Part shown: positions 11,145 through 55,190 of the stretch, piece after piece
Position numbering within the stretch: position 1 is the first letter of the stretch
Layout of the letters: each line of letters starts with the position of its first letter
From: Lachnospiraceae bacterium A4
Lineage (GTDB): Bacteria > Bacillota > Clostridia > Lachnospirales > Lachnospiraceae
Length of the DNA stretch: 64,000 nt
NCBI GenBank assembly: GCA_000403215.2
Contig: KE159565.1
Location: forward strand, 197,489-261,488
Direction of reading: 5' to 3'
Position numbers and translations under genes: made by a program
Notes under the pieces: generated by a model
The model's input: the letters and a program-made list of their open reading frames with translations, nothing else
What the model was told of the DNA's origin: nothing
Databases searched by the model: none

Positions 11145-11173
11145 TTGACGATAATAGTAGTATGGCGTACAAT
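11145..11173 (+). promoter_or_regulatory. Probable promoter of the VWA / ankyrin-LRR / MoxR operon
   Basis: A -35 TTGACG at 11145-11150 and a -10 TACAAT at 11168-11173 have a 17-bp spacer and lie 37 bp ahead of the first gene. No other convincing promoter is seen before 19046, supporting a single transcript of about 7.8 kb. Confidence 0.7.
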
Positions 11174-11209
11174 AAAATAAAAATCTTTTTTCCGAGGTAA
11201 AGAACAAAA

Positions 11210-12568
11210 ATGGAGCAGGAGAAGCAGATAAAAACTGAAAAAGTAGCAGCCGAAATCATTCAGATGTCAAAGAACAAGCTGTTAGTCAATATGCGGTTTA
11301 TGGACATGGCGCTAAACCAGTTCAGAATGTCGCCCAGACCCGATCTGACACCCTTTAGCGCCTGTGACGGGGACGTGTATGTCTATGATCCGGTACATAT
11401 TTTAAAGGCGTATATGCTCGATGAAAATCTGCCCATACGCAACTTTCTTCACAGTGTGCTGCACTGTGTCTTTAAACATTTTTATGTGAATACGCTGGTC
11501 GATCAGACAATGTGGGATCTGGCGTGTGATATTGCGGTGGAGAGCGCGATCAATGATCTGGAGCTGAGCTTTCTGAATATCACAAAGGCAAAAGAGCAAG
11601 TCCAGTTTTTCGATCTCTTTAAAAATAAAGTCAAAAACGTTTCGGCAGAAAAAATCTACAGATATTTTTTGGATGAAAAGCTTTCCGATCATTTGGTGGA
11701 AAAGCTGTCTTTGCTGTTCAAAGGAGACGACCATGTCCTGTGGTATCTCACGGAGACACAAAAGAAAAAGATGAACTTGTATGCCAGCCATGGTGAGGCT
11801 GTCAAACCGCTGTCAAACATGCTGCTGCTCTTGCAAGGCTGGGCGGATATTGCCCTGCGCATGCAGACCGAGCTGGAAGTGTTCATGTTGCAGGGAAAGG
11901 GTGCAGGACTGCTGACACAGAATTTGAGAGAGGTGAACCGGGAACGCTATGATTATTCAGAATTTCTCAAGAAGTTTGCAGTCAGGGCAGAGATGATGAA
12001 GCTCAACCCAGATGAATTTGATTATAATTTTTATACGTATGGTCTAGCGCTGTATGAGAACATGCCGTTAATAGAACCGCTAGAGTACAGGGAGGTGAAA
12101 CGCATTCGTGAATTTGTGATTGCGATTGACACCTCCGGCTCGACATCGGGCAGCTTGGTGCAGACGTTTGTCCAGAAAACCTACAATATCCTCAAAAGTA
12201 CGGAGAGCTTTTTTTCAAAGATTAATCTTCACATCATTCAGTGCGACGCAGAGATTCAGGAGGATGTGAAGATTACGACACAACAGGAGTTTGATGCGTA
12301 CCTAAAGCAGATGCAGCTTCATGGTCTGGGAGGAACGGATTTTCGCCCGGTGTTTGCGTATGTCAATCATCTGGTGGACAAGAAAGAATTTGACAATCTA
12401 AAAGGCTTGATTTATTTTACTGACGGATATGGAAGTTTTCCTCAGAAAACGCCGCCGTATGACACTGCATTTGTGTTTGTGGAGGACGAACAGAACCCGA
12501 GCACGTCGAATAATTATGAAGTTCCGTCGTGGGCGATGAAATTGGTGCTCAGGAAAGAGGAGCTGTGA
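11210..12568 (+). CDS. VWA-like domain protein, DUF2201 type with degenerate metallopeptidase domain
   Basis: A 452-residue cytoplasmic protein. The N-terminal half is the putative metallopeptidase domain that usually precedes a VWA-like domain (DUF2201 families), but the zinc motif is broken: HSVLHCVFKH from His81 replaces the catalytic HExxH. The C-terminal VWA domain has a complete metal-site opening DTSGST (Asp307), then a GLGGTDFRP loop and FTDGYG. VWA proteins of this type partner with MoxR AAA+ ATPases, as here at the far end of the operon. Together they are thought to remodel or insert cofactors into target proteins. It is first in the operon, 62 nt ahead of the first ankyrin-LRR gene. 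Confidence 0.85.
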   Translation: MEQEKQIKTEKVAAEIIQMSKNKLLVNMRFMDMALNQFRMSPRPDLTPFSACDGDVYVYDPVHILKAYMLDENLPIRNFLHSVLHCVFKHFYVNTLVDQTMWDLACDIAVESAINDLELSFLNITKAKEQVQFFDLFKNKVKNVSAEKIYRYFLDEKLSDHLVEKLSLLFKGDDHVLWYLTETQKKKMNLYASHGEAVKPLSNMLLLLQGWADIALRMQTELEVFMLQGKGAGLLTQNLREVNRERYDYSEFLKKFAVRAEMMKLNPDEFDYNFYTYGLALYENMPLIEPLEYREVKRIREFVIAIDTSGSTSGSLVQTFVQKTYNILKSTESFFSKINLHIIQCDAEIQEDVKITTQQEFDAYLKQMQLHGLGGTDFRPVFAYVNHLVDKKEFDNLKGLIYFTDGYGSFPQKTPPYDTAFVFVEDEQNPSTSNNYEVPSWAMKLVLRKEEL

Positions 12569-12629
12569 CAGAAGCAAAGGGGGAATGCAGGAAGAATGGA
12601 ACTGACGTTTGGAAAAAGGAGGAATCCAG

Positions 12630-14348
12630 ATGGAACTTGCACAGGAGGAGAGAGCCGCGCAATTACAGCGGGCGGTCATCAACGGCACTGTTCAGGAGAT
12701 CGTGGAGGTCTATGACGCGCTTGGATATGTGGAGATGTCCGCGCCGGCATTGGGGCTTGCCTGCCGTTTTCGCGGGTTGGAAGTGGTCAAAGTGTTGGTG
12801 GAAAAAGGTGCGACTTTTGATTTTCCTTCAACCGAAGAAATCGAGATCAAATATCACTGTCATATTGGTGAAAAACATGCGCAATATCGGGAGAATTACC
12901 GCACAAATTACGCGCTGTATTTCCTGAAATGTTATCGGGGCGGAGTGAAGGGAGCGCGCTGTCTGCAAGGAATGAAATTTTTCAAAAATCAAAAGCGGGA
13001 CGATGGAACGCTGCTGCCGTTTCTCGCAGACAGTGCGCGCAGCCCAGTGCTCGATTATCTGCTCCTAAATCAAAAGAAACTGGCTTTTCAGCCGGAGGAG
13101 CTGCTTTTTTATGCGATTTTTGCAAGGGATGATTTTCTTTACGAGGAACTAAAAAAGCGCAGGATATGTCTTGCGCCAAAGCGCATTCACGCGATGACCG
13201 AGGGCACGCTGGCAGACGGATACTGGTTTGAGTTTGGCACGCTGACAGGAAAACTTGCGGACCGGGATTTTGTCGGCGTTATGCAGCGGCTGTCTACAGA
13301 GCTTGATGGAAAGCCATTTCGTTTGACAGAAAAAACGTTTGACAGTATACAGAATCGTTTTCATGATTTCAGTATCTTTGAGTTTTTCCTCGAACATTTC
13401 AGGCGGGAAAAAATGCAGCCGGCGAAGATTATGCGCTGTGTGATCGACAGGAATCTGGTGGAAGCCATGCCGTTGATTGAGCGGGAGGGCTGGCTGGGTA
13501 CGCCCAGAAAGCGGGAGGAGATGATCGCCTATGCGGCAGAGCAGGAACGGACGGAGCTGCTTGCGTGGCTGCTTGATTTCAAGAACCGCACCGCCGATTT
13601 TGCGGCAGAGCAGGAAAAGGCTGACAAAAAGCTGATGCGAAAACTCAATGCTGCGCCGGACTCGGTTATGGCGTTAAGCCAGTTGTGGAGTTATAAAAAG
13701 ACAGCGGATGGCACGATCACGATCACCAACTACAAAGGGAGCGCGACGGGGGTCACAGTGCCGGAAAAAATTGGGAAAAGTATTGTTACTGCCATTGGAA
13801 AAGGGACATTTACGGGCGAGGAAAATCAGCGCAGAAACAACGAGACGATGAATCGCGGTGCCACGAAAGAGCAGATCAGACAGCACAAGAAAATCACAAA
13901 GATCGTGCTGCCAGATACAATTCAATTGATTGGCGCAGGAGCCTTTCAATGTATGGAGGAATTGCGTGAGATCAACATTCCCGCAGGGGTGAGGGAGATC
14001 GGTGAAGCTGCATTTGCTGCGTGCGCTGCGTTGAGAACCCTCACGATTCCGCCAAACGTGAAGCGCATTGGCAAGAAAGCGTTTTTGGGCTGTGCTGCAC
14101 TAGAAACGGTGTATATCAGCGAGGGTGTGGAGGAACTTGGAGCGAGGGTATTTGCCAAATGTTCGAAGTTGCGAAAGGTTTATATGCCCGCGTCGATTCA
14201 GTGTATTCGGGAGAAAGAGGAAAACAGTCTGGATTTTGAGCTATTTGCAGCGTGTCCAGATGTGACAGTCATCTGCCCGAAACAGAGTGTGGCGGAGTCA
14301 TATTGCAGGGAAAAGGGAGTCCGGTATCAGTATTGTGGGGAGGAATAA
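12630..14348 (+). CDS. Ankyrin-like / BspA-type leucine-rich repeat protein, paralogue 1
   Basis: A 572-residue protein with no signal peptide or membrane segment. The N-terminal part (about residues 1-60) reads as ankyrin-like helices ending GLEVVKVLVEKGATFDFPS. A long helical middle follows, including DFKNRTADFAAEQEKA. From about residue 345 there is a beta-rich start (TVPEKIGKSIVTAIGKGTF) and then four to five LRR_5 (BspA-like) repeats with the I-G-xx-AF-xx-C pattern. BspA LRRs are usually surface proteins, so a cytoplasmic ankyrin-LRR fusion is unusual. The start at 12630 is set by GGAGGAATCCAG. The next paralogue begins two bases after its stop. Likely a binding or adaptor protein; its target is unknown. 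Confidence 0.85.
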   Translation: MELAQEERAAQLQRAVINGTVQEIVEVYDALGYVEMSAPALGLACRFRGLEVVKVLVEKGATFDFPSTEEIEIKYHCHIGEKHAQYRENYRTNYALYFLKCYRGGVKGARCLQGMKFFKNQKRDDGTLLPFLADSARSPVLDYLLLNQKKLAFQPEELLFYAIFARDDFLYEELKKRRICLAPKRIHAMTEGTLADGYWFEFGTLTGKLADRDFVGVMQRLSTELDGKPFRLTEKTFDSIQNRFHDFSIFEFFLEHFRREKMQPAKIMRCVIDRNLVEAMPLIEREGWLGTPRKREEMIAYAAEQERTELLAWLLDFKNRTADFAAEQEKADKKLMRKLNAAPDSVMALSQLWSYKKTADGTITITNYKGSATGVTVPEKIGKSIVTAIGKGTFTGEENQRRNNETMNRGATKEQIRQHKKITKIVLPDTIQLIGAGAFQCMEELREINIPAGVREIGEAAFAACAALRTLTIPPNVKRIGKKAFLGCAALETVYISEGVEELGARVFAKCSKLRKVYMPASIQCIREKEENSLDFELFAACPDVTVICPKQSVAESYCREKGVRYQYCGEE

Positions 14349-14350
14349 AG

Positions 14351-15925
14351 ATGGAACTTGCACAGGAGGAGAGGGCCGAACGGCTGCAATGGGCAGTGCT
14401 CAACTGTTCTATTGACGAGCTGGTAACTATATATGAGGAACTTGGCGATGTGGAGATGTCCGCGCCTGCGCTGGGGCTTGCCTGCCGCTTTCGCGGCGTA
14501 GATGTGGTGCGGGCGCTGGTCGAGAAGGGTGCGACTTTTGATTTTCCTTCCACGGGGGAAACCGAGGAAAAATATCGCTGTTATATCGGTCAGAAATACG
14601 CAAATTACCGCACCAACTATTCGTTGTATTTGCTCAAACTATTCCGCGGAGGGTTAAAGGGCGCCTGTAGTATGAAGGGCATGAAATTCACACAGAGCGC
14701 AAAGCGGGAAAAAGGAAAGCCGCTGCCGTTTCTGGCGGACGATGAGCGCATCGCAGTGCTTGCGTATCTTTACCAATATCGGGAAAAAATATCCTTTCAG
14801 CCGGAGGAGATGCTGTTCTACGCGATCTTTGCCATGGACACTGTTATTTATGAGGCGCTGAAAAAATTAGGTGTCGCACTTGCCGAAATCCGCGTGCACA
14901 CGATGACAGAAGGCGGTATGGCAGGCGACGGATACTGGTATGAATTTGGCGCCCTGACCGGAAAACTCCCAGATGAGACATACATACAAGTCATGGACCA
15001 GCTTGCGTCAGAGCTTGGTCAAACACCATTTTATTTTACAGAGAAGATGTATGATATTACCAAGAAGCGGTTTGGCGATCTCAGCGTCTTTGCATATTTT
15101 CTGTCGCATTTCAGGCAGGACAAGATGAAGAAGTATCAGATAATACGCAGTCTGATCGACGAGAATACCTTGGAGGCGCTGCCTGTCATTGAGCAGATGG
15201 GCTGGCTATCTGTGCCGAGAAAGCGCGATGAAATGATCGAGTATGCCATGAACCAGAAAAAGACAGAGGCGCTCGCGTGGCTGCTGGATTATAAAAACCG
15301 CACGGCGGATTTGGCAGCAGAGCAAAAAAAGGCTGAGCAAAAGCTGAGGCGGGAGATCTTCATGTCGCCTGCTTCCGTGGCGGCAATGCGAAAAATATGG
15401 CGCTATAAAAAGCGGGAGGATGGCACGCTGGTCATTTACGGCTATATGGGAGAGGCAAGCGATGTGACGGTGCCGGAGAAGATTGGCAAAGCCGTTGTCA
15501 CAGAGATCAGCAAACTGGCATTCAACGGCTGCAATACCATAAGGCAGGTAATCGTTCCCGGAACAGTCAAAAGTATCGGAAAATGCGCATTTTTTCATTG
15601 CAGTGCGCTGGAAAAAGTAACGCTTTGCGAGGGCGTAGTGGAAATCGGAACGCAGGCGTTTGGCGCCTGTGACAATTTAGTGGAGCTCAGAATACCGCAG
15701 TCTGTCGAGCGTTTGCTGACAGCGGAGGAGGAAACGGGGAAATGTAATCCTGCAAAGTGCGACACGTATTATAGCTGTAAAAACCGTTCCCACGAGATTT
15801 TCCCCAGAAATCCCAAGCTGACGATATACTGTCCGAAAGAGAGCAAAACAGAAGCGTTTTGTATCGAAAAGAAGTTTGCGTACAAGTACAGTGAGGCAGA
15901 AGAGGCAAAGGAGAATACGAAATGA
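14351..15925 (+). CDS. Ankyrin-like / BspA-type leucine-rich repeat protein, paralogue 2
   Basis: A 524-residue paralogue of the preceding protein, nearly identical over the first residues (MELAQEERA) and over ALGLACRFRG and EKGATFDFPS. It keeps the same order: ankyrin-like N-terminus, helical middle with the shared YKNRTADLAAEQ segment, then VTVPEKIGKAVVTEI and about three LRR_5 repeats (fewer than in paralogue 1). The longer open frame begins at 14252, but the ATG at 14351 has GGAGGAATAAAG just ahead and matches the paralogue start. The stop overlaps the next start by ATGA, so translation is coupled. Confidence 0.85.
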   Translation: MELAQEERAERLQWAVLNCSIDELVTIYEELGDVEMSAPALGLACRFRGVDVVRALVEKGATFDFPSTGETEEKYRCYIGQKYANYRTNYSLYLLKLFRGGLKGACSMKGMKFTQSAKREKGKPLPFLADDERIAVLAYLYQYREKISFQPEEMLFYAIFAMDTVIYEALKKLGVALAEIRVHTMTEGGMAGDGYWYEFGALTGKLPDETYIQVMDQLASELGQTPFYFTEKMYDITKKRFGDLSVFAYFLSHFRQDKMKKYQIIRSLIDENTLEALPVIEQMGWLSVPRKRDEMIEYAMNQKKTEALAWLLDYKNRTADLAAEQKKAEQKLRREIFMSPASVAAMRKIWRYKKREDGTLVIYGYMGEASDVTVPEKIGKAVVTEISKLAFNGCNTIRQVIVPGTVKSIGKCAFFHCSALEKVTLCEGVVEIGTQAFGACDNLVELRIPQSVERLLTAEEETGKCNPAKCDTYYSCKNRSHEIFPRNPKLTIYCPKESKTEAFCIEKKFAYKYSEAEEAKENTK

Positions 15926-17538
15926 AAATAAAACTGGATGTGAATGAGGACGCCAAGATCACTGCACTGGAAGAGGCGGTGCGAAGTGATACGCCAAACG
16001 AAGTTTCAGCGCTGTATAAGAAGCTGGGAAATGTCCTCTTAACCGCCCATATTTTAGGGATTGCCTGTCGCTTCCGCGGTTTGGAAATGGTGAAGGTGCT
16101 AATCGAAAATGGTGCGACCTTCCGCTGCGACAGGGAGACAGTCCGATATAGGTCCTATGAGTTATTTGGATATACAGCGTATGATCTGGACTTTTTCCTC
16201 CTGTTTTTATTTAGCGAGATCAATAAAATTCACGAGCATCAGCTAAGAGTGTATCTGAGCACACTGAGGGACAGGGAGGGGCATCTGCTTGAGCCCATTT
16301 CAAAGGAACAGCTTATGGAGGTCATCATATATCTTTGTGACAATGGTCAGAATACAGGATTTTGTCCGGGTGAGCTGTTGTGTCTGGCACTCTTTGCAGG
16401 GGAGAAGGAGATCGCTGCCGCATTAAAAGACAGAGGTATTTCTATCTCAGATAACAAGAAAAGGATGCTGACAGAGGGCCATGGGCGCACGGTATGGTAT
16501 ATTTACATTGATTGTATCAGAACGATGAATGACGAGCGCTTTTTGCAGGTTATGTCCGAGGTGGTTCATGATGTTGGTGAAGATAAAAAGCTGCATTTTA
16601 CCAATGGGATGGAATATGCCTTGCAGGACCGGTTCTATCACCCGGAAATTTTTTCGTTTTTCATGAAACATTTTGATCATTCAAAGATGAAGAAAAAATA
16701 TCTGCTTCAACACTTGATTGCGGATGAAAATACCGAATGTCTCAAGCTTGCTGCAAATCAGGGTTGGCTCAAACGCCCACAGTTGCGCGATGAGATGATA
16801 CAGTACGCCTCAGAGAATCACAAGACGGAATGTACAGCATTTTTGCTGGATTATAAAAACCGCACGGCGGACTTTGCTGCGGAGGCAGAGAGGGCAGAGC
16901 GAAAGATGAGACGTGAGTTGAATGCCAACCCCAATTCCATGACCCAGCTCAAGAAAACGTGGGCTTTTCGAGAGAAGGAGGATGGAACACTGGTGATCAC
17001 TGGATACAAGGGCAGCAGCACAGAGATTACGGTGCCAGAGATGATCGGAAAATGCAGAGTAACAGAAATCGGACCTCTTGCATTCGCGCCCTATGGTCCC
17101 CGCGTGAAGGAATCGGTGCGTGCGTTTCGACGGACCATCACAAAGATTATACTGCCCGCGGGCATTCGGGTGATCGGCGTCAGTGCGTTTCGAGACTTGC
17201 CGGCATTGCAGGAGATTGTGCTTGCGGCGGGCGTGGAAGTGATAGGAGAGTATGCTTTCAGCGACTGTAATCAGTTGAAGGAGGTTGTCATTCCCGAGGG
17301 TGTGCGCATCGTGGGAGACGGGGTGTTCAGCAGCTGGCACCGAGCGGGGATGGCGCTTCAACAGGTGGTGCTGCCAAGTACGCTTGATATATTCAAGGAT
17401 GCCCAGTGTGCAGAAAACGCACCAGCGCTTTTTCTGAACTGTGACAATGTCACTGTGCGGATTCCGGCGCTCTTGCCGGCAAGAATTTACTGTGAAAAAT
17501 TTGGTTTACATTATGAGTACAATGGAGGAGAACAATGA
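15922..17538 (+). CDS. Ankyrin-like / BspA-type leucine-rich repeat protein, paralogue 3
   Basis: A 538-residue third paralogue, more diverged than the first two. The N-terminal ankyrin-like block is recognisable (ILGIACRFRGLEMVKVLIE), as is the shared LLDYKNRTADFAAEAE segment. The tail again carries ITVPEMIGKCRVTEIG and four LRR_5 repeats such as IPEGVRIVGDGVF. No transport signal is seen. It overlaps both neighbours by four bases (ATGA at each end), coupling it to paralogue 2 and to the MoxR ATPase. The differing repeat number and sequence between the three suggest distinct targets rather than recent copies. Confidence 0.85.
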   Translation: MKIKLDVNEDAKITALEEAVRSDTPNEVSALYKKLGNVLLTAHILGIACRFRGLEMVKVLIENGATFRCDRETVRYRSYELFGYTAYDLDFFLLFLFSEINKIHEHQLRVYLSTLRDREGHLLEPISKEQLMEVIIYLCDNGQNTGFCPGELLCLALFAGEKEIAAALKDRGISISDNKKRMLTEGHGRTVWYIYIDCIRTMNDERFLQVMSEVVHDVGEDKKLHFTNGMEYALQDRFYHPEIFSFFMKHFDHSKMKKKYLLQHLIADENTECLKLAANQGWLKRPQLRDEMIQYASENHKTECTAFLLDYKNRTADFAAEAERAERKMRRELNANPNSMTQLKKTWAFREKEDGTLVITGYKGSSTEITVPEMIGKCRVTEIGPLAFAPYGPRVKESVRAFRRTITKIILPAGIRVIGVSAFRDLPALQEIVLAAGVEVIGEYAFSDCNQLKEVVIPEGVRIVGDGVFSSWHRAGMALQQVVLPSTLDIFKDAQCAENAPALFLNCDNVTVRIPALLPARIYCEKFGLHYEYNGGEQ

Positions 17539-19046
17539 ACATTAAGCAGGCAAAGGAAGATATCAAGAATGCAGTGTCCGCCTATTTGACGAAGGATCAG
17601 TTTGGAAATTATGTGATTCCTGTTGAGCGGCAGCGCCCTGTCTTTTTGATGGGGGCGCCGGGAATCGGCAAGACAGCGATTATGGAACAGATTGCGCAGG
17701 AGCTGCAGATTGGTCTGATCAGTTATTCTATGACGCATCATACGAGGCAGTCGGCGCTGGGACTTCCGTTTATTGTCAGGAAAAACTATGGCGGTGTGGA
17801 GTACAGCATCAGCGAGTACACGATGAGCGAGATCATCGCGTCAGTTTATGATTTGATGGAGGAGACCGGCTTGAAGGAGGGGATTTTGTTTCTGGACGAG
17901 ATCAACTGTGTGTCAGAGACACTTGCGCCCTCAATGCTGCAATTTTTGCAGTACAAGACCTTTGGACGCCACTGTGTTCCGAGCGGCTGGATTGTCGTCA
18001 CTGCGGGCAATCCGCCAGAGTATAACAATTCTGTGCGCGAGTTTGACATCGTGACTTGGGATCGTCTAAAGAGGATTGATGTAGAGCCAGACTATGAGGT
18101 CTGGAAGGAATACGCATATAGCAAAGGCACGCATCCTGCGATCACGACGTATTTAGATGTAAAAAAGGACAATTTTTATAAGATCGAAACCACTGTTGAC
18201 GGCAAAAGTTTTGTGACAGCCCGCGGCTGGAGTGACCTTTCTGATATGATAAAGCTGTATGAGCAAAAGGATATTTTGATTACAGAGCAGCTTGTCATAC
18301 AATATTTGCAGAATAAAAAAATCGCGAAGGGATTTGCAGTGTACTATGATTTGTTCAAAAAATACAGATCTGATTATCAGATTGACAAGATCATGGCAGG
18401 CAAGGCGGGCAAGGAGATTGTCAAGCGTGCAAAGGCGGCAAGGTTTGACGAGCGCTTGTCGCTGTTAGGGTTGCTGATCGACGGTTTGGTCAGTGGTATC
18501 CGCGAAGCTTCCGCGCAGGAGGGGGCTGTCTTAGAGCTGGTGAACTGCCTGAAACTGATGCGGGCAGACTTTGTCGTGGAGAAGGACTTCACGGAGGTCG
18601 TCAGGCGGCGCACCGAGGCAGCGCAAAAGGAGATCGCTGTCGGCAAGAAGGCAGGAAATCTTTCCGCAGACCGCGAGTATGTGCTGAATCTCACGATTGC
18701 CGCGCTGGACGAGCAGATCAAATTGATCGTTGAGAAGGCGCCGGCGAGCGCAGACGCCGCCTTCAAACTCCTGAAATCAGACTTTGACAAGCGCAAAAAA
18801 GCGCTGGCGAAGATGGTTTCTCAGTTAGACGGGAATCTGACAAATGTGTTTCAATTCTGTGAGGAGGCATTTGGGGAGGGCAGCCAAGAACTTCTGATTT
18901 TGGTGACAGAGCTTACCATCAACACCTACTCGGCACATTTTATCAGTAAATATGGATGCGAGGCGTATTTCAGGCACAACAAGGATATGCTGTTCACGGA
19001 GCGGAAGAAGGATATTCTGGCAGAGATTGATTCGCTGATGAAATAA
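17535..19046 (+). CDS. MoxR family AAA+ ATPase
   Basis: A 503-residue AAA+ protein. The P-loop is GAPGIGKTA at about residues 40-48, Walker B is FLDEIN near residue 120, and sensor 1 lies in VVTAGNPPEYN, followed by a MoxR-type lid. The C-terminal 200 residues form a long helical region (many Lys/Glu/Ala) absent from minimal MoxR proteins. MoxR ATPases act as chaperones with VWA-domain partners; here the partner would be the product of the first gene of the operon (11210). It is coupled to the LRR genes by an ATGA overlap. Its last base is also the first base of a 157-bp palindromic repeat. Confidence 0.9.
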   Translation: MNIKQAKEDIKNAVSAYLTKDQFGNYVIPVERQRPVFLMGAPGIGKTAIMEQIAQELQIGLISYSMTHHTRQSALGLPFIVRKNYGGVEYSISEYTMSEIIASVYDLMEETGLKEGILFLDEINCVSETLAPSMLQFLQYKTFGRHCVPSGWIVVTAGNPPEYNNSVREFDIVTWDRLKRIDVEPDYEVWKEYAYSKGTHPAITTYLDVKKDNFYKIETTVDGKSFVTARGWSDLSDMIKLYEQKDILITEQLVIQYLQNKKIAKGFAVYYDLFKKYRSDYQIDKIMAGKAGKEIVKRAKAARFDERLSLLGLLIDGLVSGIREASAQEGAVLELVNCLKLMRADFVVEKDFTEVVRRRTEAAQKEIAVGKKAGNLSADREYVLNLTIAALDEQIKLIVEKAPASADAAFKLLKSDFDKRKKALAKMVSQLDGNLTNVFQFCEEAFGEGSQELLILVTELTINTYSAHFISKYGCEAYFRHNKDMLFTERKKDILAEIDSLMK

Positions 19047-19202
19047 GGAACTGTTCAGAAATTACTCATGACAATTACTTGTCTAAATGTCCATCTGCGT
19101 CATCAGAAAATCTTGACATAGCCCGCTATGCCTGCGATTTTCTTCTTTGCAGCTGAACATTTATACGGCGTACTTGTCACAAGTAATTTCATCACAGTTC
19201 CT
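19046..19202. repeat. 157-bp imperfect palindromic (MITE-like) element
   Basis: The left end AGGAACTGTTCAGAAATTACT is matched in inverted form at the right end (AGTAATTTCATCACAGTTCCT). Inner arms (GAAAATC / GATTTTC) and a central hairpin (CATAG / CTATG) also pair. It starts at the last base of the MoxR gene stop codon and is non-coding. It could act as a transcript-end structure for the operon or be a small non-autonomous mobile repeat. Confidence 0.65.
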
Positions 19203-19291
19203 AAGGAACTGCCTGCAAGCACAAGATGACGAAGTTTCAGATGTGAGGATTTGTATTAGAAAGAAGTATGATAGAATATATATAGAATACC

Positions 19292-19320: not shown

Positions 19321-19393
19321 ATAGTGAAAGTGAAAATTGTTGTACGAATATGCTGCAGTGCGAAAGCGTGTAGCATACCATAGGGGAATTAGT

Positions 19394-22300
19394 ATGAAGA
19401 GAAAGAAGTTGTTACAGGATATCTTAATTGTTGTATTTCTATTGATAGCAGTGGTCGTTTTATTCTGCTGGTTTACGGCAAAGAACAGTGTCCGAATGGA
19501 GGAGCAGAATAAAAGATATGCGTCAGATTCAGCGCGCCAGACCATGACGCGCATCAATGAGGAAATGAACAATGGACTGGCACTCATCACGACATATGCG
19601 TACTTTGTCGGTGAGGGGCTTAGTGCTCCAGTGATTGACAAACAACTTTTACAGGAAATAGAACATAATGCACTGTTTGATGCAGTGCTGTTTACAGATC
19701 CTTCCGGGATCAATCACACTTCCGACGGGCGCACTTCCGATGCGTCGGACAGAGATTATTATCAGAAAGGAATGCGCGGAGAAAGTGGGATTGCGGTCAT
19801 TCTTGACTCCTTCTTTTTCAATGAGACGATGGTGAGCTTCTATGCGCCCGTCCGCTATCAGGGCGAGATTATCGGCGTGCTACGGGGTTCTTATCTGGCG
19901 GAGGAATATCTGAAAGACATGCTGACCACCAGCTATTTTGGTGAGGCTGCAGATGTGTATCTGTGCATGGAAAACGGCAGGGCGATTGCAAGCTCTGAAG
20001 GTGATATCTACGAGGAGGATTTAATAGATAAATTGGTGGAAACCAATGTGATTGACGCTCAGGCAGCCAGGGAGGCAAAGGGGATCTTTGTGCACGGCGG
20101 CGAGGGCTCGTTTATCTGCGAGCAGGGCTATAAGACCGACAATATCTGTGCGACACACCTCCTGGACCATGATTTTGTTCTGGTGCAGACCTTTCCAAAG
20201 AGCGTGACACAGCGTATGATTCGGGATGAAAATATTGTCGGCATCCAGTTGGAGGTGATGCTGGTTATCCTGTTTGCAATCTATATCGTCACACTGATTA
20301 TCCGTGCTGGCAGGGAGAAGAAGCTGCTTGAGCGTGAAAACAGGGAGATGGGATATATCATCAAGGGTATTACCACCTTATTTGCCCGTTTTGCGATGGT
20401 CGATCTGGAGGCTGGCACCTATCAGTACCTTGCTGGAACGAGGGCTGAGGACAGTTCATTGGACACCTTTGGCCCATATGAAAATTTGACACAGTATTTG
20501 TGCTCTATCATCATTGATGAGGAGGACCGCAAGGAATTTGGCGACATGATTGACAGGGAAACACTTGTACAGGTGCTGACAGAGCAGAGTGATATGCGTT
20601 TTGAGCGTCATGTGCTGCGCGGCGGCCAGCCAGAGTGGGAGCACATGAATGTTATCTGTCTGGAGAGAAAGGACGGCAAGGCGGTTAAGGCGCTGATTAT
20701 CCGTCAGAATATCACAGAGATCAAGGAGAAAGAGCTGGAGATACAGGAGCAAATGTTTTTGGCGAGCCGCAAAGAACGTCAGTATCAGCTTGCGATTATG
20801 TCGAACTCGATCTATACATTTGAGTTTAATCTGTCAAAGGATTTAATAGAGCAGGATATCCTGCGCACGGTGGACGGACAACAGATGTCCATGCTGGAAC
20901 TGACTGGGCTGAGTGCGCCATGCAGGGCTTCGGAGTGGTTTGAGCGCCGCAGAAAGTATGTTGCGCAGGAATCCATTGAAGATTATAAGTCGATTGTAAA
21001 CATAGACTATTTAAAGGAATGCTTTGAAGCCGGTGAGGCGGAAGTGAGCGTCGAGTATTGGGGCAAAGATTTCGATGATCAGGAGATTTGTGTGCGCCAG
21101 TCCTTCCTCATGACACAGGACGACAGAACGGGCGATATCGTGGTTATGGTGGTGAAAAAGGAGATTACGGAGAGCGTCAAGAAGCAGCGCGAGCAGACGC
21201 AGGCATTGCAGGATGCCTTGATGCAGGCGCAGCATGCCAATCGGGCAAAGACGACCTTCCTGTCAAATATGTCGCATGATATCCGCACGCCGATGAACGC
21301 TATCATTGGGTTTACCACCATTGCGGTGAGCCATATTGACAATAAGGACCAAGTGAGGGACTGCCTGCAGAAGGTGCTTTCCTCCAGCAATCACTTGCTC
21401 AGCCTGATCAATGATATCCTTGACATGAGCAGGATTGAGAGCGGCAAGGTGCAGATCAAGGAGCAGGAGTGCAATATTTCTGAATTGATGCACAATCTGG
21501 TCAACATTATCCAGCCACAGGTGAAGGCGAAGCAGCTTGAGCTGTTTATTGATACCTTTGAGATTGTCAATGAGGACGTGATCGCAGATGCGTTGAAGCT
21601 TAATCAGGTATTTATCAATCTCCTCAGCAATGCTGTGAAATATACACCGGCGGGAGGGAGCATCGCATTTCGAATCATGCAGAAAACAACCTTCCGTCAC
21701 GGATACGGCGATTACATATTTATCATCAAAGATAATGGAATTGGTATGTCAGCGGAATTTGTCGAGCATATCTTTGAGCCGTTTGAGCGTGAATCTACAG
21801 TGACGCAGTCTGGTATTCAGGGAACGGGTCTTGGCATGGCGATCACGAGGAATATTGTGGAGATGATGGGCGGTACGATCAACGTCGAGAGTGAGGTCGG
21901 CAAGGGCAGCACCTTTACGGTAGAGATTTCGCTAAAGCTTCAGGACATTGAGAAGAATGCGGCGCAGATTCAGGAGCTTGATGGCTTGCGGGCGCTGGTG
22001 GTCGATGATGATTTCCATATCTGTGACAGTGTGAGCAAGATGCTCAAACAGATCGGTATGCGCTCTGAGTGGACAACATCCGGCAGGGAAGCGGCGTACC
22101 GTGCCCAGATGGCATATGAGGAGGGGGATGCCTTCCATACTTACATTATTGACTGGCAGATGCCCGAGACAAGCGGCGTGGAGACTGCCAGAAAGATTCG
22201 AAGCGTGGCAGGAAACGATGTGCCGATCATCATTTTGACGGCGTATGACTGGTCCGATATCGAGGAGGAGGCAAAAGCTGCGGGAGTGACGGCATTCTGT

Positions 22301-22783
22301 GCCAAGCCGCTCTTTATGTCCGACTTAAAATCCGCATTGCTTGCCGCAAATAATCTGCTTGATAAGGAAGATGAAGCCGCCGCGTGGACATTGGCGGATT
22401 TCAGTGGGAAACGTGTCCTGCTGGTGGAGGACATTGAGCTGAACCGAGAAATTGCACAGGTGATTTTGGAGGAGGCTGGATTTGTTGTAGAGTCAGCGCC
22501 TGACGGAACCGACGCTGTCGCGATGGTGGAGAAGGCTGAGGAAAATTATTATGATGTTGTATTGATGGATGTACAGATGCCTATTATGAACGGTTATGAG
22601 GCGACAAGGACGATTCGAAACATGCCGAGAAAGGATGTCAAGACGCTCCCGATTATAGCGATGACTGCAAATGCCTTGGAGGAGGATAAGGAGGCAGCAT
22701 TGAAAAATGGTATGAATGCCCATATCTCCAAGCCGCTCAATATGGATATCTTTATCTCTGTGCTCAAGCAGTTTGTAAAATAA
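19394..22783 (+). CDS. Membrane hybrid sensor histidine kinase with two receiver domains
   Basis: A 1129-residue membrane protein. Order: membrane segment at about residues 7-27, an extracytoplasmic Cache-like sensor (about 35-280), a second membrane segment (about 287-307), a cytoplasmic PAS-like region, HisKA with the phospho-His in SNMSHDIRTP (His628), a HATPase domain (DNGIGMS, GTGLGMA), then two receivers. Receiver 1 starts ALVVDDD with phospho-Asp920 in IIDWQMP; receiver 2 has phospho-Asp1059 in LMDVQMP. There is no DNA-binding output, so it probably relays phosphate or controls a partner. The start at 19394 follows AGGGGAATTAGT. The ligand is unknown. Confidence 0.93.
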   Translation: MKRKKLLQDILIVVFLLIAVVVLFCWFTAKNSVRMEEQNKRYASDSARQTMTRINEEMNNGLALITTYAYFVGEGLSAPVIDKQLLQEIEHNALFDAVLFTDPSGINHTSDGRTSDASDRDYYQKGMRGESGIAVILDSFFFNETMVSFYAPVRYQGEIIGVLRGSYLAEEYLKDMLTTSYFGEAADVYLCMENGRAIASSEGDIYEEDLIDKLVETNVIDAQAAREAKGIFVHGGEGSFICEQGYKTDNICATHLLDHDFVLVQTFPKSVTQRMIRDENIVGIQLEVMLVILFAIYIVTLIIRAGREKKLLERENREMGYIIKGITTLFARFAMVDLEAGTYQYLAGTRAEDSSLDTFGPYENLTQYLCSIIIDEEDRKEFGDMIDRETLVQVLTEQSDMRFERHVLRGGQPEWEHMNVICLERKDGKAVKALIIRQNITEIKEKELEIQEQMFLASRKERQYQLAIMSNSIYTFEFNLSKDLIEQDILRTVDGQQMSMLELTGLSAPCRASEWFERRRKYVAQESIEDYKSIVNIDYLKECFEAGEAEVSVEYWGKDFDDQEICVRQSFLMTQDDRTGDIVVMVVKKEITESVKKQREQTQALQDALMQAQHANRAKTTFLSNMSHDIRTPMNAIIGFTTIAVSHIDNKDQVRDCLQKVLSSSNHLLSLINDILDMSRIESGKVQIKEQECNISELMHNLVNIIQPQVKAKQLELFIDTFEIVNEDVIADALKLNQVFINLLSNAVKYTPAGGSIAFRIMQKTTFRHGYGDYIFIIKDNGIGMSAEFVEHIFEPFERESTVTQSGIQGTGLGMAITRNIVEMMGGTINVESEVGKGSTFTVEISLKLQDIEKNAAQIQELDGLRALVVDDDFHICDSVSKMLKQIGMRSEWTTSGREAAYRAQMAYEEGDAFHTYIIDWQMPETSGVETARKIRSVAGNDVPIIILTAYDWSDIEEEAKAAGVTAFCAKPLFMSDLKSALLAANNLLDKEDEAAAWTLADFSGKRVLLVEDIELNREIAQVILEEAGFVVESAPDGTDAVAMVEKAEENYYDVVLMDVQMPIMNGYEATRTIRNMPRKDVKTLPIIAMTANALEEDKEAALKNGMNAHISKPLNMDIFISVLKQFVK

Positions 22784-50121: not shown

Positions 50122-51150
50122 TCAGTAGCCTCTGATTAACTGTTCAATAATGTTCTGCGATTCCCATATCGGAGAATTATCTTTTAAGGCAAAAGCAAGC
50201 GAATCCTGTGAGGCCTTTTCCACCGCCTGACGTTTCATCTCTGTATCTGCATATGCGTAAATTAACGTTGTTTCCGGATCTTCATGTCCAAGGAATTCCG
50301 ATAAGACCGCAAGCGGCATCCCGCCCTGATATAAGTGCATTGCCCGCGAATGGCGGAACATATGCGGATGTACATGCTCCGGCACATGCGGATTGCCTAT
50401 ACGGGCCTGTGCGGCATATTTTTTCAGAAACCTCGATACATTATCGTCCGACATTGGCGTTTTTTCCCCGCAGTGTTTCGTATAAAACAAATGGACATCC
50501 TTTCTGCTGTCATGGTGGAATGATGATTTATAAAGCTCAAACAAATGGAGTGTTTCTTTTGAAACAGGCACAAGCCTGGGTTTGGAACCCTTTCCGAATA
50601 AATATACCGTTTTGTTTTCCGGATTTATATCAGACAGCTTCATTTTCAGCATTTCCCCGTCACGTGCCGCTGTATCATACATCAGTGCCAGAAAGAACCG
50701 GTCGCGCAGCCCCTTGGGAGAGCCTGTGTCAATGCATCCGATGATTGCAGCAACAGCGTCTTTTGACATATGGCTTACAACGCGCGAATTATCGGTTCCC
50801 TTTTTCAGCGGTATTGTGCAAAGATCCGCATATACCGTATATACTTCGGGAGAGGTGTACGCCGCAAATTTGAAGAATGACCGTATACAGCTCAGCCTGT
50901 TGTTGCGTGTGGATTCCTTCCAGCCTTTCTGTGACTCTGTTGTATCCAGAAACTCTGTAAGCAGGTCAGACGTAAAGGTTTCAAACCCCAGTCCGGAAGC
51001 GGGAATCCCTTTCTCCTGTAGTAAAAAACGGAGCAGGATATTCCAGGCCATGCGGCAGGAATCAATTGTTTTCTCGCTGCTGTTGCGCTGCTTTGGCAGA
51101 TAGATCCCAAAATATTCCCGTAGTTTCTTCCAAAAAGCGTTGCTTTTCAT
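50122..51150 (-). CDS. RIT element tyrosine recombinase, third gene
   Basis: A 342-residue site-specific tyrosine recombinase. The N-terminal SAM-like core-binding domain is followed by the catalytic domain with DTAARDGEML (first Arg), HPHMFRHSRAMHL (His-x-x-Arg), LGHEDPETTLIYAY (His and nucleophile Tyr). All catalytic residues appear present. The start at 51150 gives an ATGA overlap with the second recombinase gene, replacing a much longer frame without ribosome site. The three proteins are expected to act together on the element ends. Confidence 0.9.
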   Translation of the reverse strand: MKSNAFWKKLREYFGIYLPKQRNSSEKTIDSCRMAWNILLRFLLQEKGIPASGLGFETFTSDLLTEFLDTTESQKGWKESTRNNRLSCIRSFFKFAAYTSPEVYTVYADLCTIPLKKGTDNSRVVSHMSKDAVAAIIGCIDTGSPKGLRDRFFLALMYDTAARDGEMLKMKLSDINPENKTVYLFGKGSKPRLVPVSKETLHLFELYKSSFHHDSRKDVHLFYTKHCGEKTPMSDDNVSRFLKKYAAQARIGNPHVPEHVHPHMFRHSRAMHLYQGGMPLAVLSEFLGHEDPETTLIYAYADTEMKRQAVEKASQDSLAFALKDNSPIWESQNIIEQLIRGY

Positions 51151-52088
51151 GGGGCACCTCCGATCATGCCTGAGATGTCCATGTATTCCATCTTTGACAG
51201 GCGCTCCGGCAGGAGATGCAGGTAATAACAGGTTTCCCGGAAAGTCTGATGCCCCATATAGGCACTCAGATATGGCAGGAACTGCCCGAAATCCCGGCCC
51301 TCTTCCATCCACCGTGTCAATGTTTGTGTCGCAAAGTTGTGCCTCAGGATATATGGCGTACAATAACGCCCAAGGACATCAGGGTTCCCAGCCATTTCCC
51401 AGCACTTGTGGAAGAGGGTGCTGATGGCCTGCGCCCCATGCCTGTTCCCGTTCCGATTGGGAAAGAATATCTCTGTCCCAGGGTACATTCCCCGCGCAAT
51501 CCTATCATAATTGCGGCACATTTCCATCACGCCCGGCTCCACCGCTATACACCTGTCCTTATGTCTTTTCGAGTCTGCGATGTATATCGTGCAATGGGAA
51601 AAATCAAGATCCTGCCTTCGGAGAAGCCTGGCTTCCTGTGGGCGCATTCCGGTAGAATACTGGAGCCGGAAGATAACGGCGGCCGTATATTCAATGAGCG
51701 GGTTCGCCGGATTATGGGGATACCTGTCAGCTGCCTGAAAAAAACGGCGGCATTCTCCCGCGCTCATGATATATGGCAGCTGCCTTTTCTTATAGCTGAA
51801 ATAATCCACAGGGAATACGCATGCTTCTTTCCCCAGAAGGACCTGATACCTGCCAAGATTCCTCAGGGCTATCACATCCACATAGGCATCACAGTGTTCA
51901 CGTTTTGTTTGTAAGTAGGACAGGGCAATGTCCCATGTCAGGATGTCGGCATCAGGGAAAAACGCCCCGCAGTAACGGTCAAACTGCACCAGATACCCGT
52001 CGTAACTATCGACAGCATACCCAAGAGTTTCCCGCCACTCCCGCATTTTCTCTATGTCGTGCGCAAATTTGCTCTGGAAAGAGACCAT
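51147..52088 (-). CDS. RIT element tyrosine recombinase, second gene
   Basis: A 313-residue tyrosine recombinase. The first catalytic Arg lies in STGMRPQEARLL. Box II reads TPYILRHNFATQ, where the usual His before the xxR is Tyr. A late GHQTF and CYYLHL supply the second His and the nucleophile Tyr. The atypical box II may reflect a specialised role in the trio. The start at 52088 shares one base with the stop of the first gene (TAATG), and its own stop overlaps the third gene. Confidence 0.88.
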   Translation of the reverse strand: MVSFQSKFAHDIEKMREWRETLGYAVDSYDGYLVQFDRYCGAFFPDADILTWDIALSYLQTKREHCDAYVDVIALRNLGRYQVLLGKEACVFPVDYFSYKKRQLPYIMSAGECRRFFQAADRYPHNPANPLIEYTAAVIFRLQYSTGMRPQEARLLRRQDLDFSHCTIYIADSKRHKDRCIAVEPGVMEMCRNYDRIARGMYPGTEIFFPNRNGNRHGAQAISTLFHKCWEMAGNPDVLGRYCTPYILRHNFATQTLTRWMEEGRDFGQFLPYLSAYMGHQTFRETCYYLHLLPERLSKMEYMDISGMIGGAP

Positions 52089-53320
52089 TATACCAAGCCC
52101 TCCTTCCGTGTATGCAGAGGCCCGAGGTCCAGGCAGCATGTCCTCATAGTTCCGCTGTCCAGTGAGATATAGCGTTTGGAGGACTCAATGTTTCCATGTC
52201 CGAGGATCTGGGCAACAGTGGATACGGGAACCCCGGAGGAAACCATTTTTGTTCCCGCCGTCCTCCGTAATGCATGAAAAGATTTGCCATCCCAGCCGGA
52301 ACGCCCGATGCCTGCAGCTTCGATGTATCCACGCAGGGCAGCATTAAAAAGCGTCGGACTGACAGGACTAGAAAAAACAGGCGGAAGCAGGCGGACGAAA
52401 ACATACGGGTTATCCGTCCGCGGCCTGGAATGGAGGATGTAATCCGCAATGGCATTTCCGGCATCAATGGGAAGCGGCAGCAACAGTGTCACTTTTGTTT
52501 TTTTCTGTACAACACGGATGGTCTTTTCTGTCCAGCAGATATCGGAAAGTTTCAATCCGGATATATCAGAAGCCCTCATTCCTGTCCTCACGGCAAGAAG
52601 AAATATGGCATAATCCCGGCGGCCTTTGTCGGTCGAACGGTCTATTTTTGAAAAGATCAGCTGAAGTTCCTCATCTGTAAAACAGGGAAGGGCTTTCTGC
52701 CTGCACCTGCCAGCCGTACCGAGGAAACGGTCCGCATCCAGGTCAACAATCCCTTTGTCCCGCAGAAACTGTACAAAATTTCTTAAAGTACGCAACAGTC
52801 TCGGCATACTGCCTTTATGGTTTGGGGCTTCCTGACGGACAAAATCTAGGACATTTTCAGATACCATGGAATGGGCATCCTCCACTCCTGCCTGTTCAAG
52901 GAAATACAGGAACTGCCGTATAATAATCATTTCAGGGCGGACAGTCCCCGGACTGAGCCGTTTTGAGAGTTCCTGCTGAAAACCGGACATCAGCTCCCTG
53001 TAAGCTCCGGAAGCAGGGGCGTTAGTCGTAAAAGTGACGGATCCCCAGCTGAATTCCCCGGTTTCAAAATATCTGGCAACAGTATAAGCTGCTTTTCTTA
53101 TGGGCTTAATGGTAGATTGTTTCAGTTCCGCCCTGCACTTAAGCGCACAGAACGCAGCCGCATCCTGATACATGAAAGTATCACGTCTGTTTTCCATACA
53201 ATACCGGAAAACGGCTTCATAATGCCTTGCATAGCCAGCGAAAGTTTTTGCAGAAAGGCCAAGTTCCTTTGTGCGTTGAAGCACGTAGTCAATGTGTTTC
53301 CTTAATTCAAAATTTTCCAT
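52088..53320 (-). CDS. RIT element tyrosine recombinase, first gene
   Basis: A 410-residue tyrosine recombinase. The N-terminal half has core-binding helices, and the catalytic half shows RTGMRASDISGL (Arg), SFHALRRTAGTKM (His-x-x-Arg), LGHGNIESSKRYISLD (His and Tyr). The active site is complete. It is first in the three-gene operon. AGGAGGG precedes the ATG, and start codon plus ribosome site lie inside an inverted repeat (53317-53352) that may limit its translation. Confidence 0.9.
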   Translation of the reverse strand: MENFELRKHIDYVLQRTKELGLSAKTFAGYARHYEAVFRYCMENRRDTFMYQDAAAFCALKCRAELKQSTIKPIRKAAYTVARYFETGEFSWGSVTFTTNAPASGAYRELMSGFQQELSKRLSPGTVRPEMIIIRQFLYFLEQAGVEDAHSMVSENVLDFVRQEAPNHKGSMPRLLRTLRNFVQFLRDKGIVDLDADRFLGTAGRCRQKALPCFTDEELQLIFSKIDRSTDKGRRDYAIFLLAVRTGMRASDISGLKLSDICWTEKTIRVVQKKTKVTLLLPLPIDAGNAIADYILHSRPRTDNPYVFVRLLPPVFSSPVSPTLFNAALRGYIEAAGIGRSGWDGKSFHALRRTAGTKMVSSGVPVSTVAQILGHGNIESSKRYISLDSGTMRTCCLDLGPLHTRKEGLV

Positions 53321-54122: not shown

Positions 54123-55190
54123 ATGAATCTGCCCATATCGGTCACGCAGAGTGACCTTTTGGAAATATTGTTAAATATTGCCCCGGTGCGTCCTGTCTTT
54201 ATATGGGGAGCGCCGGGGATTGGCAAGTCTGCGCTGGTTGAGCAGTTTGCGGAGGAGGTAGGGCTGGACTGCGTGTCGCTGCTTGGCAGCCAGCTTGCGC
54301 CGGAGGACATTATCGGGATTCCGCAGATCAAGGGAGAGACTTCTGAATTTCTGCCGCCGAAGATGATTGCCAGAAAGGAGCCTTATGTATTGTTTCTCGA
54401 TGAACTGAACGCATGTTCGCAGGAGGTTCAGAAGGCTTTCTACAGCCTGATTCATGAGAAGCGCATCGGTGAGTATCATCTGCCAAAGGGCAGTGTCGTG
54501 ATCGGGGCAGGAAACCGGGCGCAGGATTCTGCGATTGTCAAGACCATGTCCTCGGCGCTTGTGAACCGAATGTTTCATGTACAGCTCAAAGCAGACCCGG
54601 CGCAGTGGCTTGCGTGGGCCTATCAGAACGGCATTCATCCGTGGATTACGGAGTATATCAGCCAGCGTCCCGATCATCTCTTTGCGCAGCCGCCAAAGAC
54701 CGAGGAGCCGTATTCGACGCCTCGTTCGTGGCACATGCTAAGCGATGCGTTAAGGGAGTACGGTGCGGGCAGCAGGGAGATCACAGAGGACATGCTGCGC
54801 GTCATTACATACGGCTGTGTGTCAGCGTCACACGGCGGCATGTTTCTGGCGTTTACCAGACAGCTTGGCAACACGCACCTTTTGTCAGATATCGTCAAGG
54901 GGGAGGCGCGGTGGCCGTCAAAGCCGGAGGAGAGAGATGTGCTCTATTTCTTGGCGCAGTCCTTCAGGGGGAGGCTGCTTCACGAACTGCCGCAGGACAA
55001 GCAGAAGCTCGGAAAGGACGGGCAGTTTCTGGCACACCGGGCAAAGGCGCTCATGAAGGATTTGTCCGCGATCAGCTACGAGATTGCGCAGATGGTGATC
55101 TCGGCGGAGGAGGACAAGGTGCTGCCGGAGTGGTTTATGCTGGAGATCGTGCGGGATTTGCCGCGGCTGGCGGAGGGCAGACATGGCTAA
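54123..55190 (+). CDS. MoxR-type AAA+ ATPase, second system
   Basis: A 355-residue AAA+ ATPase. The P-loop is GAPGIGKSA at about residues 30-38, Walker B is FLDELNA near 91-96, and sensor 1 is in VIGAGNRAQDS, followed by the small lid domain. It is shorter than the MoxR protein at 17535 and lacks its long C-terminal helical extension. The ribosome site is GGAGGTGACAGACA. It overlaps the VWA gene by eight bases, so the two form a coupled pair. MoxR-VWA pairs act as protein-remodelling chaperones; the client here is unknown. Confidence 0.9.
   Translation: MNLPISVTQSDLLEILLNIAPVRPVFIWGAPGIGKSALVEQFAEEVGLDCVSLLGSQLAPEDIIGIPQIKGETSEFLPPKMIARKEPYVLFLDELNACSQEVQKAFYSLIHEKRIGEYHLPKGSVVIGAGNRAQDSAIVKTMSSALVNRMFHVQLKADPAQWLAWAYQNGIHPWITEYISQRPDHLFAQPPKTEEPYSTPRSWHMLSDALREYGAGSREITEDMLRVITYGCVSASHGGMFLAFTRQLGNTHLLSDIVKGEARWPSKPEERDVLYFLAQSFRGRLLHELPQDKQKLGKDGQFLAHRAKALMKDLSAISYEIAQMVISAEEDKVLPEWFMLEIVRDLPRLAEGRHG

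Follow-up and report, generated by a model that had tools for sequence, protein, structure and literature searches.

The stretch of DNA analysed here (hereafter the window) comprises 64,000 nucleotides of Lachnospiraceae bacterium A4 (assembly GCA_000403215.2, contig KE159565.1, positions 197,489 to 261,488), and the system in question is a set of five plus-strand genes at 11210-19046 encoding, in order, a von Willebrand factor A (VWA) protein of the DUF2201 type, three proteins with ankyrin-like (Ank) and leucine-rich repeat (LRR) parts designated A1, A2 and A3, and a MoxR-like AAA+ ATPase. Both the open reading frame (ORF) list and the sequence bore out the five-gene operon proposed in an initial annotation, with a gap of 61 nt (given there as 62) between the VWA gene and A1, a gap of 2 nt between A1 and A2, and overlaps of 4 nt at both A2/A3 and A3/MoxR. 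The listed starts of A1 (12609) and A2 (14252) were regarded as upstream extensions and the ATG codons at 12630 and 14351 adopted instead, the first of these being directly preceded by AAGGAGG. A sigma-70-like promoter (TTGACG-17-TACAAT; 11145-11173, plus strand) matching at 10 of 12 positions supports the one good promoter claimed at the outset, but not its singularity: the scan that found it counted 21 promoter-like sites in this region, where shuffled sequence averaged 9.7; a score of 10/12 was reached by five more of them, and equally good matches occur within genes. Because the region is so rich in such sites the promoter is plausible rather than proven, and the promoter and terminator scans together amount to weak evidence only.

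The VWA gene (11210-12568, plus strand) encodes a putative co-chaperone, modelled by AlphaFold2 with a pLDDT of 85.5, in which Pfam recognised a degenerate zincin-like DUF2201_N part (2.3e-5) and a DUF2201 VWA domain (4.5e-13). The metal ion-dependent adhesion site (MIDAS) residues of that domain (12116-12490; D307, S309, S311, T376 and D405) were invariant in a 50-row alignment, as were the histidine triad H81-x3-H85-x4-H90 (11450-11479) and E111, which sits in the helix after it; the D-x-S-x-S motif was present in 99/99 VWA proteins of the family. An active metallopeptidase was rejected because the glutamate of HExxH is absent from the triad in all 50 rows, HExxH occurring somewhere in just three of 99 family VWA ORFs. 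The DUF2201_N-like part would thus bind metal, probably without peptidase activity, and a displaced catalytic glutamate within it is conceivable. The protein ends some 25 residues past DUF2201 with no effector domain C-terminal to the VWA domain; Pfam detected no propeller family in it, and the model consists of helices plus one VWA domain. That model matched VWA and I domains, among them the MIDAS of MDN1 (8ql1, E 3.6e-4, rank 41), and the VWA profile found no sequence match in the PDB.

The ATPase gene (17535-19046, plus strand) carries a Walker A motif, GAPGIGKT (17652-17675), in which G40, P42, G43, G45, K46 and T47 were invariant in the alignment, and a profile built from it found P-loop matches only in the PDB. 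Assignment to the MoxR clade was made on the grounds of its AAA (2.4e-7) and AAA_5 (2.6e-7) Pfam matches, its VWA partner and a near miss to bpMoxR (25.4 bits, the cut-off being 27). The same genome holds a paralogous set in the order VWA-MoxR-LRR (locus L005, G000:C23:310000-329900), the MoxR of which is 56% identical to that of the window and the third component of which is a single 311-residue LRR-CT protein ending in FELDW. A second, distant MoxR gene lies within the window itself and, together with the gene of a 613-residue DUF2201 protein (55183-57024), spans 54123-57024; that protein has a VWA domain and two DUF2201_N-like His motifs, one of which retains HEYLH. Beside this pair stand two adjacent minus-strand genes (51147-53320) that resemble tyrosine recombinases in sequence. 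Among 50,697 phage records, eight (including MT837836.1 and MT835935.1) matched the window MoxR, six of the eight over at least 80% of it; all are short unannotated faecal 'Bacteriophage sp.' entries and may represent either phage-borne copies or bacterial DNA contamination.

The three genes between this pair encode proteins of one architecture: A1 (12630-14348), A2 (14351-15925) and A3 (15922-17538), all on the plus strand, each contain an LRR_5 region (Pfam 4e-26, 6.5e-15 and 5.1e-13, respectively; 13884-14213 in A1) and an ankyrin-like N-terminal part that passed the Pfam cut-off in A3 only (Ank_2, 2.7e-7). Over their first 345 residues A1 and A2 are 60% identical, and A3 is 35% identical to either. 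Between the two repeat parts, profile comparison placed a helical segment (13281-13637 in A1, E 1.2e-5; 2e-9 in A3; hhalign probability 96.6% for the A1-A3-type family) corresponding to a domain for which the name CT was coined here, a helical unit of ~135 residues that follows the LRRs in the single ~300-residue protein which is the usual partner of MoxR and VWA in relatives. With Ank-CT-LRR in place of LRR-CT, the window proteins are an unusual form, both permuted and triplicated. In the AlphaFold2 model of A1 (pLDDT 88, pTM 0.60) one half is helical and the other is built of LRRs; the LRR half matched bacterial LRR structures in the PDB, and the helical N-terminal half drew no match of its own among the 50 PDB matches listed. 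A fourth Ank-CT-LRR gene of 606 residues is located elsewhere in the genome (G000:C12:645141-646841; L223 9133-10953), with neither MoxR nor VWA among its listed neighbours. The earlier observation that the LRR proteins lack a signal peptide also stood: none of the five window proteins, and none of 86 linked LRR proteins including A1-A3, exhibited a hydrophobic N-terminus in a simple hydropathy test (as distinct from a signal-peptide predictor), and the linked LRR proteins accordingly look cytoplasmic.

Conservation of the LRR genes beside MoxR and VWA, on which the initial annotation had staked its association, was examined in same-family genomes, 130 of 250 of which gave MoxR matches at E <=1e-60 in 150 places. 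The 102 loci inspected were the window, the paralogous set of the same genome, and 100 of the 148 places in other genomes. In 83 of them an LRR gene adjoins the pair, on the MoxR strand and at most four genes upstream or three downstream; when the further CT forms described below are counted as well, 92 have a third component either linked or fused. The proposed location of the LRR genes between VWA and MoxR, true of the window (VWA-LRR-LRR-LRR-MoxR), is one of five orders recorded once each, the usual orders being LRR-VWA-MoxR (52 loci) and VWA-MoxR-LRR (26). Of the 248 genes no more than two positions from MoxR and in the same orientation (VWA excluded), 85 were third components, compared with three of 919 genes at least four away. 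Conservation on this scale across genomes implies that the arrangement reflects more than chance, and the result that the initial annotation had named as refuting it, a lack of such LRR genes beside MoxR/VWA elsewhere, was not what the genomes showed.

What stays constant in the usual third component is CT, which occurs in combination with LRR_5, DUF6273, DUF4132 or ankyrin, alone, or fused to VWA. Small CT-only proteins of 102-143 residues, devoid of LRRs, lie beside VWA in five loci (L109, L110, L117, L118 and L134), and CT is fused N-terminally to VWA in four others (L125, L130, L131 and L133); in L132 a single 935-residue ORF comprises CT (15-116), VWA (116-528) and MoxR (517-935), and in L080 a VWA-MoxR fusion stands next to an LRR-CT gene. 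Across 150 family genomes (taken from their listing to be G000-G149) the CT profile matched 77, of which 75 also contained MoxR; two contained CT only and two MoxR only, and in one of the latter (G021) the MoxR contig stops inside an LRR gene. CT and this MoxR thus occur together with very few exceptions. A MoxR match was located no more than 8 kb from 79 of 92 CT places, and 77 of 89 MoxR places had CT within the same distance. Phylum-wide, the same three of 199 genomes carried both, a small number of positives, and against the PDB the CT profile gave one weak helical-repeat match. Many linked LRR-CT proteins outside the window share a C-terminal signature: F-x-L forms the exact end of 48/80, as opposed to 3/1045 non-overlapping control genes from the same loci (9/1708 when all six-frame ORFs above 150 residues served as controls), and falls within the last six residues of 55/80 versus 16/1045; its phenylalanine is the sole column conserved at 90% or more in a 31-row CT alignment.

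A scan of named genomes, in which the best 80 of 584 confirmed loci were analysed and the sample is for that reason biased toward the window, extended the hosts to Lachnospiraceae bacterium IMSAGC_011, Ruminococcus flavefaciens, Pseudoflavonifractor capillosus, Parablautia intestinalis and Solobacterium sp., together with Paraeggerthella, Gordonibacter, Senegalimassilia and Slackia, genera of the Eggerthellaceae. Within 7 kb, nine of these 80 loci had no third-component gene, 53 had one, nine had two, two had three, six had four and one had eight; arrays of 2-8 such genes therefore occur in 18. The variable part of the third component is exchanged between loci, domain scans of 103 out of 109 returning LRR_5 (85), DUF6273 (8), DUF4132 (6), Ank_2 (6), BRCT (3), SLH (1) and a weak VMAP-M1 match (1; E 5.8e-4); a seventh DUF4132 example in L155 brought that total to 7/104, and six of the seven have F-x-L in their last six residues. 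Even in the nearest relatives (L135 and L136), whose MoxR proteins are 87-88% identical to that of the window and whose arrays likewise consist of Ank-CT-LRR proteins, each of the six long third components shares at most 40-67% identity with its best counterpart among A1-A3, and LRR numbers differ. In 250 random pairs drawn from 78 single-LRR loci the median identities were 49% for MoxR, 40% for VWA and 28% for the third component, the last being less identical than VWA in 248, so that by this measure the third component is the fastest evolving of the three.

On balance these data make it probable, in our estimation, that the operon encodes a MoxR-VWA ternary system in which one remodelling motor is served by interchangeable cytoplasmic recognition subunits. 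In such a scheme MoxR would form an ATP-driven AAA+ ring and VWA would act as its co-chaperone, gripping a peptide through its intact MIDAS while its degenerate metallopeptidase-like part retains the His triad; what has been described for MoxR-VWA pairs leads to the expectation that VWA holds a peptide and the ATPase alters the bound protein (PMC3893208, PMC7159879). The third component would make physical contact with MoxR-VWA via CT, in many relatives perhaps via its F-x-L end, and bear a changeable recognition surface of LRR_5, ankyrin, DUF6273 or DUF4132, different third components thereby presenting different targets, or target states, as clients that the motor would remodel or release. 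The four A-type proteins of this genome, three from the operon and one from the unlinked gene, could all serve the same motor. A docking domain with replaceable recognition surfaces is the simplest reading because CT is constant, the repeat domains change and VWA fusions exist. For a physical complex of all three proteins, the natural fusions provide indirect evidence. The initial suggestion that the LRR proteins are adaptors or sensors that choose clients fits the exchanged domains, the arrays and the rapid divergence; the role itself is inferred from these patterns.

Several observations weigh against this recognition-subunit model. Ten of the 102 family loci lacked a third component by the linkage criterion, three of which (L070, L094 and L119) have a CT gene elsewhere in the fetched stretch and another of which (L112) has LRR and VWA genes split from MoxR by two opposite-strand genes; among the named loci, the nine with none in reach include several on short contigs. 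Some linked LRR genes may be mere bystanders, given the SLH domain in one of 103 and the 27 named examples without a CT match. Rapid divergence can equally mean relaxed constraint. Among the named loci, which are nearer to the window, the F-x-L signature is weaker (15/48 with a terminal CT compared with 30/967 control ORFs; 0/32 with an internal CT; 2/27 without CT), and neither A1-A3 nor the unlinked fourth protein ends in it. Rearrangements also proved few, since gene order largely tracks the MoxR clades and, across 78 loci, LRR-VWA-MoxR and VWA-MoxR-LRR were interchanged twice; the idea of many independent shuffles of gene order was not borne out.

The principal rival is that the third component is the client, MoxR-VWA serving to assemble, activate or disassemble LRR/Ank proteins which then act elsewhere. 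That MoxR-VWA pairs mature dedicated partner complexes (PMC3893208, in its accessible portion) accords with this possibility, as do the conserved C-terminal peptide, which could be a handle for the motor, and the 13 of 92 CT places that had no MoxR match within 8 kb, a group in which some lie at contig ends or in draft assemblies. However, CT is fused in cis to VWA or VWA-MoxR in five loci and stands alone in five more with no recognition domain attached, arrangements easier to explain by a docking or regulatory part than by a client; we hold the client alternative to be possible rather than probable. A further candidate, that the LRR genes encode common BspA-like surface proteins and lie near a MoxR-VWA pair by chance, draws on the frequency of LRR_5 in such genomes, the many LRR matches elsewhere in this one, and the surface LRR structures that best match the LRR part of A1. 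It is confronted by the co-occurrence, adjacency and fusion of CT with MoxR and by the hydropathy result, and as a general case was deemed refuted and very improbable indeed, albeit that it may fit single genes such as the SLH-bearing one.

Involvement in biological conflict, whether anti-phage or self-against-nonself, with the LRR/Ank proteins as sensors of invaders, had been raised in the initial annotation and would be in keeping with the patchy distribution among family genomes, with a rapidly evolving third component that is multiplied in arrays and exchanges modules, and with a broad likeness to the MoxR-vWA ternary systems that Kaur et al. described in 2020 (PMC7159879). It was not favoured by the outcome of the analysis: the Pfam scan of the five window proteins turned up no effector domain; against the PADLOC 2023 models these proteins gave weak AAA similarity only (best E 1.2e-5, IetA, residues 5-62) and hence no support for a catalogued defence system; and neither VMAP nor the N-terminal MoxR features reported for the published systems were encountered in them. 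A defence island was likewise rejected, as immediate neighbours (135 scanned of 171 eligible) were not clearly richer in PADLOC defence models than genes 4-5 away (134 of 290; 25 of 29 families listed). A conflict role is thus thought unlikely, and the recognition-subunit model is retained in preference.

Downstream of the operon, directly after the MoxR stop codon, is an imperfect palindrome of ~160 bp (19045-19205) with 33-nt arms that are 82% complementary; its matches in the same genome fill 71 rows, more than 20 of which are near-full-length copies with identities of 88-100%, and by its sequence it resembles a miniature inverted-repeat transposable element. The following gene (19337-22783) encodes a large histidine kinase of the hybrid type, in which Cache, HisKA and HATPase domains are combined with two receiver domains, and its position behind the palindrome means that it is probably a separate unit.

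A more ambitious extension of the recognition-subunit model, offered as a tentative possibility, would be a system of many receptors and one motor in gut Clostridia and their relatives: cytoplasmic LRR, ankyrin, DUF6273 and DUF4132 receptors, plugged in by CT and diversified by tandem duplication and change of repeat number, would sense foreign or damaged proteins inside the cell by a logic akin to that of nucleotide-binding LRR (NLR) proteins. DUF6273 has a C-type-lectin-like fold. If correct, an undescribed chaperone-like machine with plug-in receptors would exist in about half of the sampled family genomes (130/250), many LRR/ankyrin proteins without signal peptides would acquire a cellular role, and the function-unknown DUF2201, DUF4132 and DUF6273 would be tied to one process. 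Single CT-VWA-MoxR proteins, and rapidly evolving receptors on a fixed motor, would then provide a simple setting in which to examine client choice by MoxR-VWA machines, a matter still to be settled for MoxR proteins in general.

Among known machines, midasin (MDN1/Rea1) is one giant eukaryotic protein. Its MIDAS bound to a ubiquitin-like (UBL) domain (8ql1) bears a generic VWA-fold likeness to the VWA model (TM 0.25 on query). RavA-ViaA of Escherichia coli also unites a MoxR-family ATPase with a VWA partner and is, according to the accessible portion of PMC3893208, a two-part system; it is set alongside the window operon by description rather than by sequence. The yehFHIKLMPQ operon of E. coli, in which YehL (MoxR), YehP (VWA) and YehI (DUF4132) occur together, shares its DUF4132 protein with the seven third components of relatives that carry this domain; the window proteins contain no DUF4132 by Pfam. 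YehL gave no meaningful BLASTP alignment to the window MoxR, YehP is of the VWA_CoxE rather than the DUF2201 type, and YehI does not end in F-x-L.

A close parallel is provided by the MoxR-vWA ternary systems reported by Kaur et al. in 2020 (PMC7159879), which share linked genes for an AAA+ MoxR, a vWA with MIDAS aspartates and a fast-evolving third component, and of which four types (VMAP, iSTAND, FtsH and beta-propeller) are set out in the accessible portion of that source, none with a CT-type third component; nor did that portion yield any mention of ankyrin, leucine-rich or DUF2201. By comparison, the third component here is CT with LRR_5, Ank, DUF6273 or DUF4132, and the VWA protein is a DUF2201 one with a zincin-like N-terminus and no effector. 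The Trp-bearing N-terminal motif ascribed to MoxR-vWA-VMAP (PMC7159879) is missing, 25 of 26 MoxR rows being free of Trp in their first 38 residues, and a Pfam scan of the five window proteins gave no hit to VMAP; the propeller fused to vWA in the MoxR-vWA-beta-propeller type is also lacking, and the bpMoxR profile scored just below its cut-off. The hosts found here are of Clostridia, Coriobacteriia and Erysipelotrichia type. No description of a CT/LRR-type MoxR-VWA system was encountered in the literature searched, the coverage of which mostly excluded subscription papers and preprints, and the system is most likely a MoxR-VWA ternary one that belongs to none of the published subtypes.

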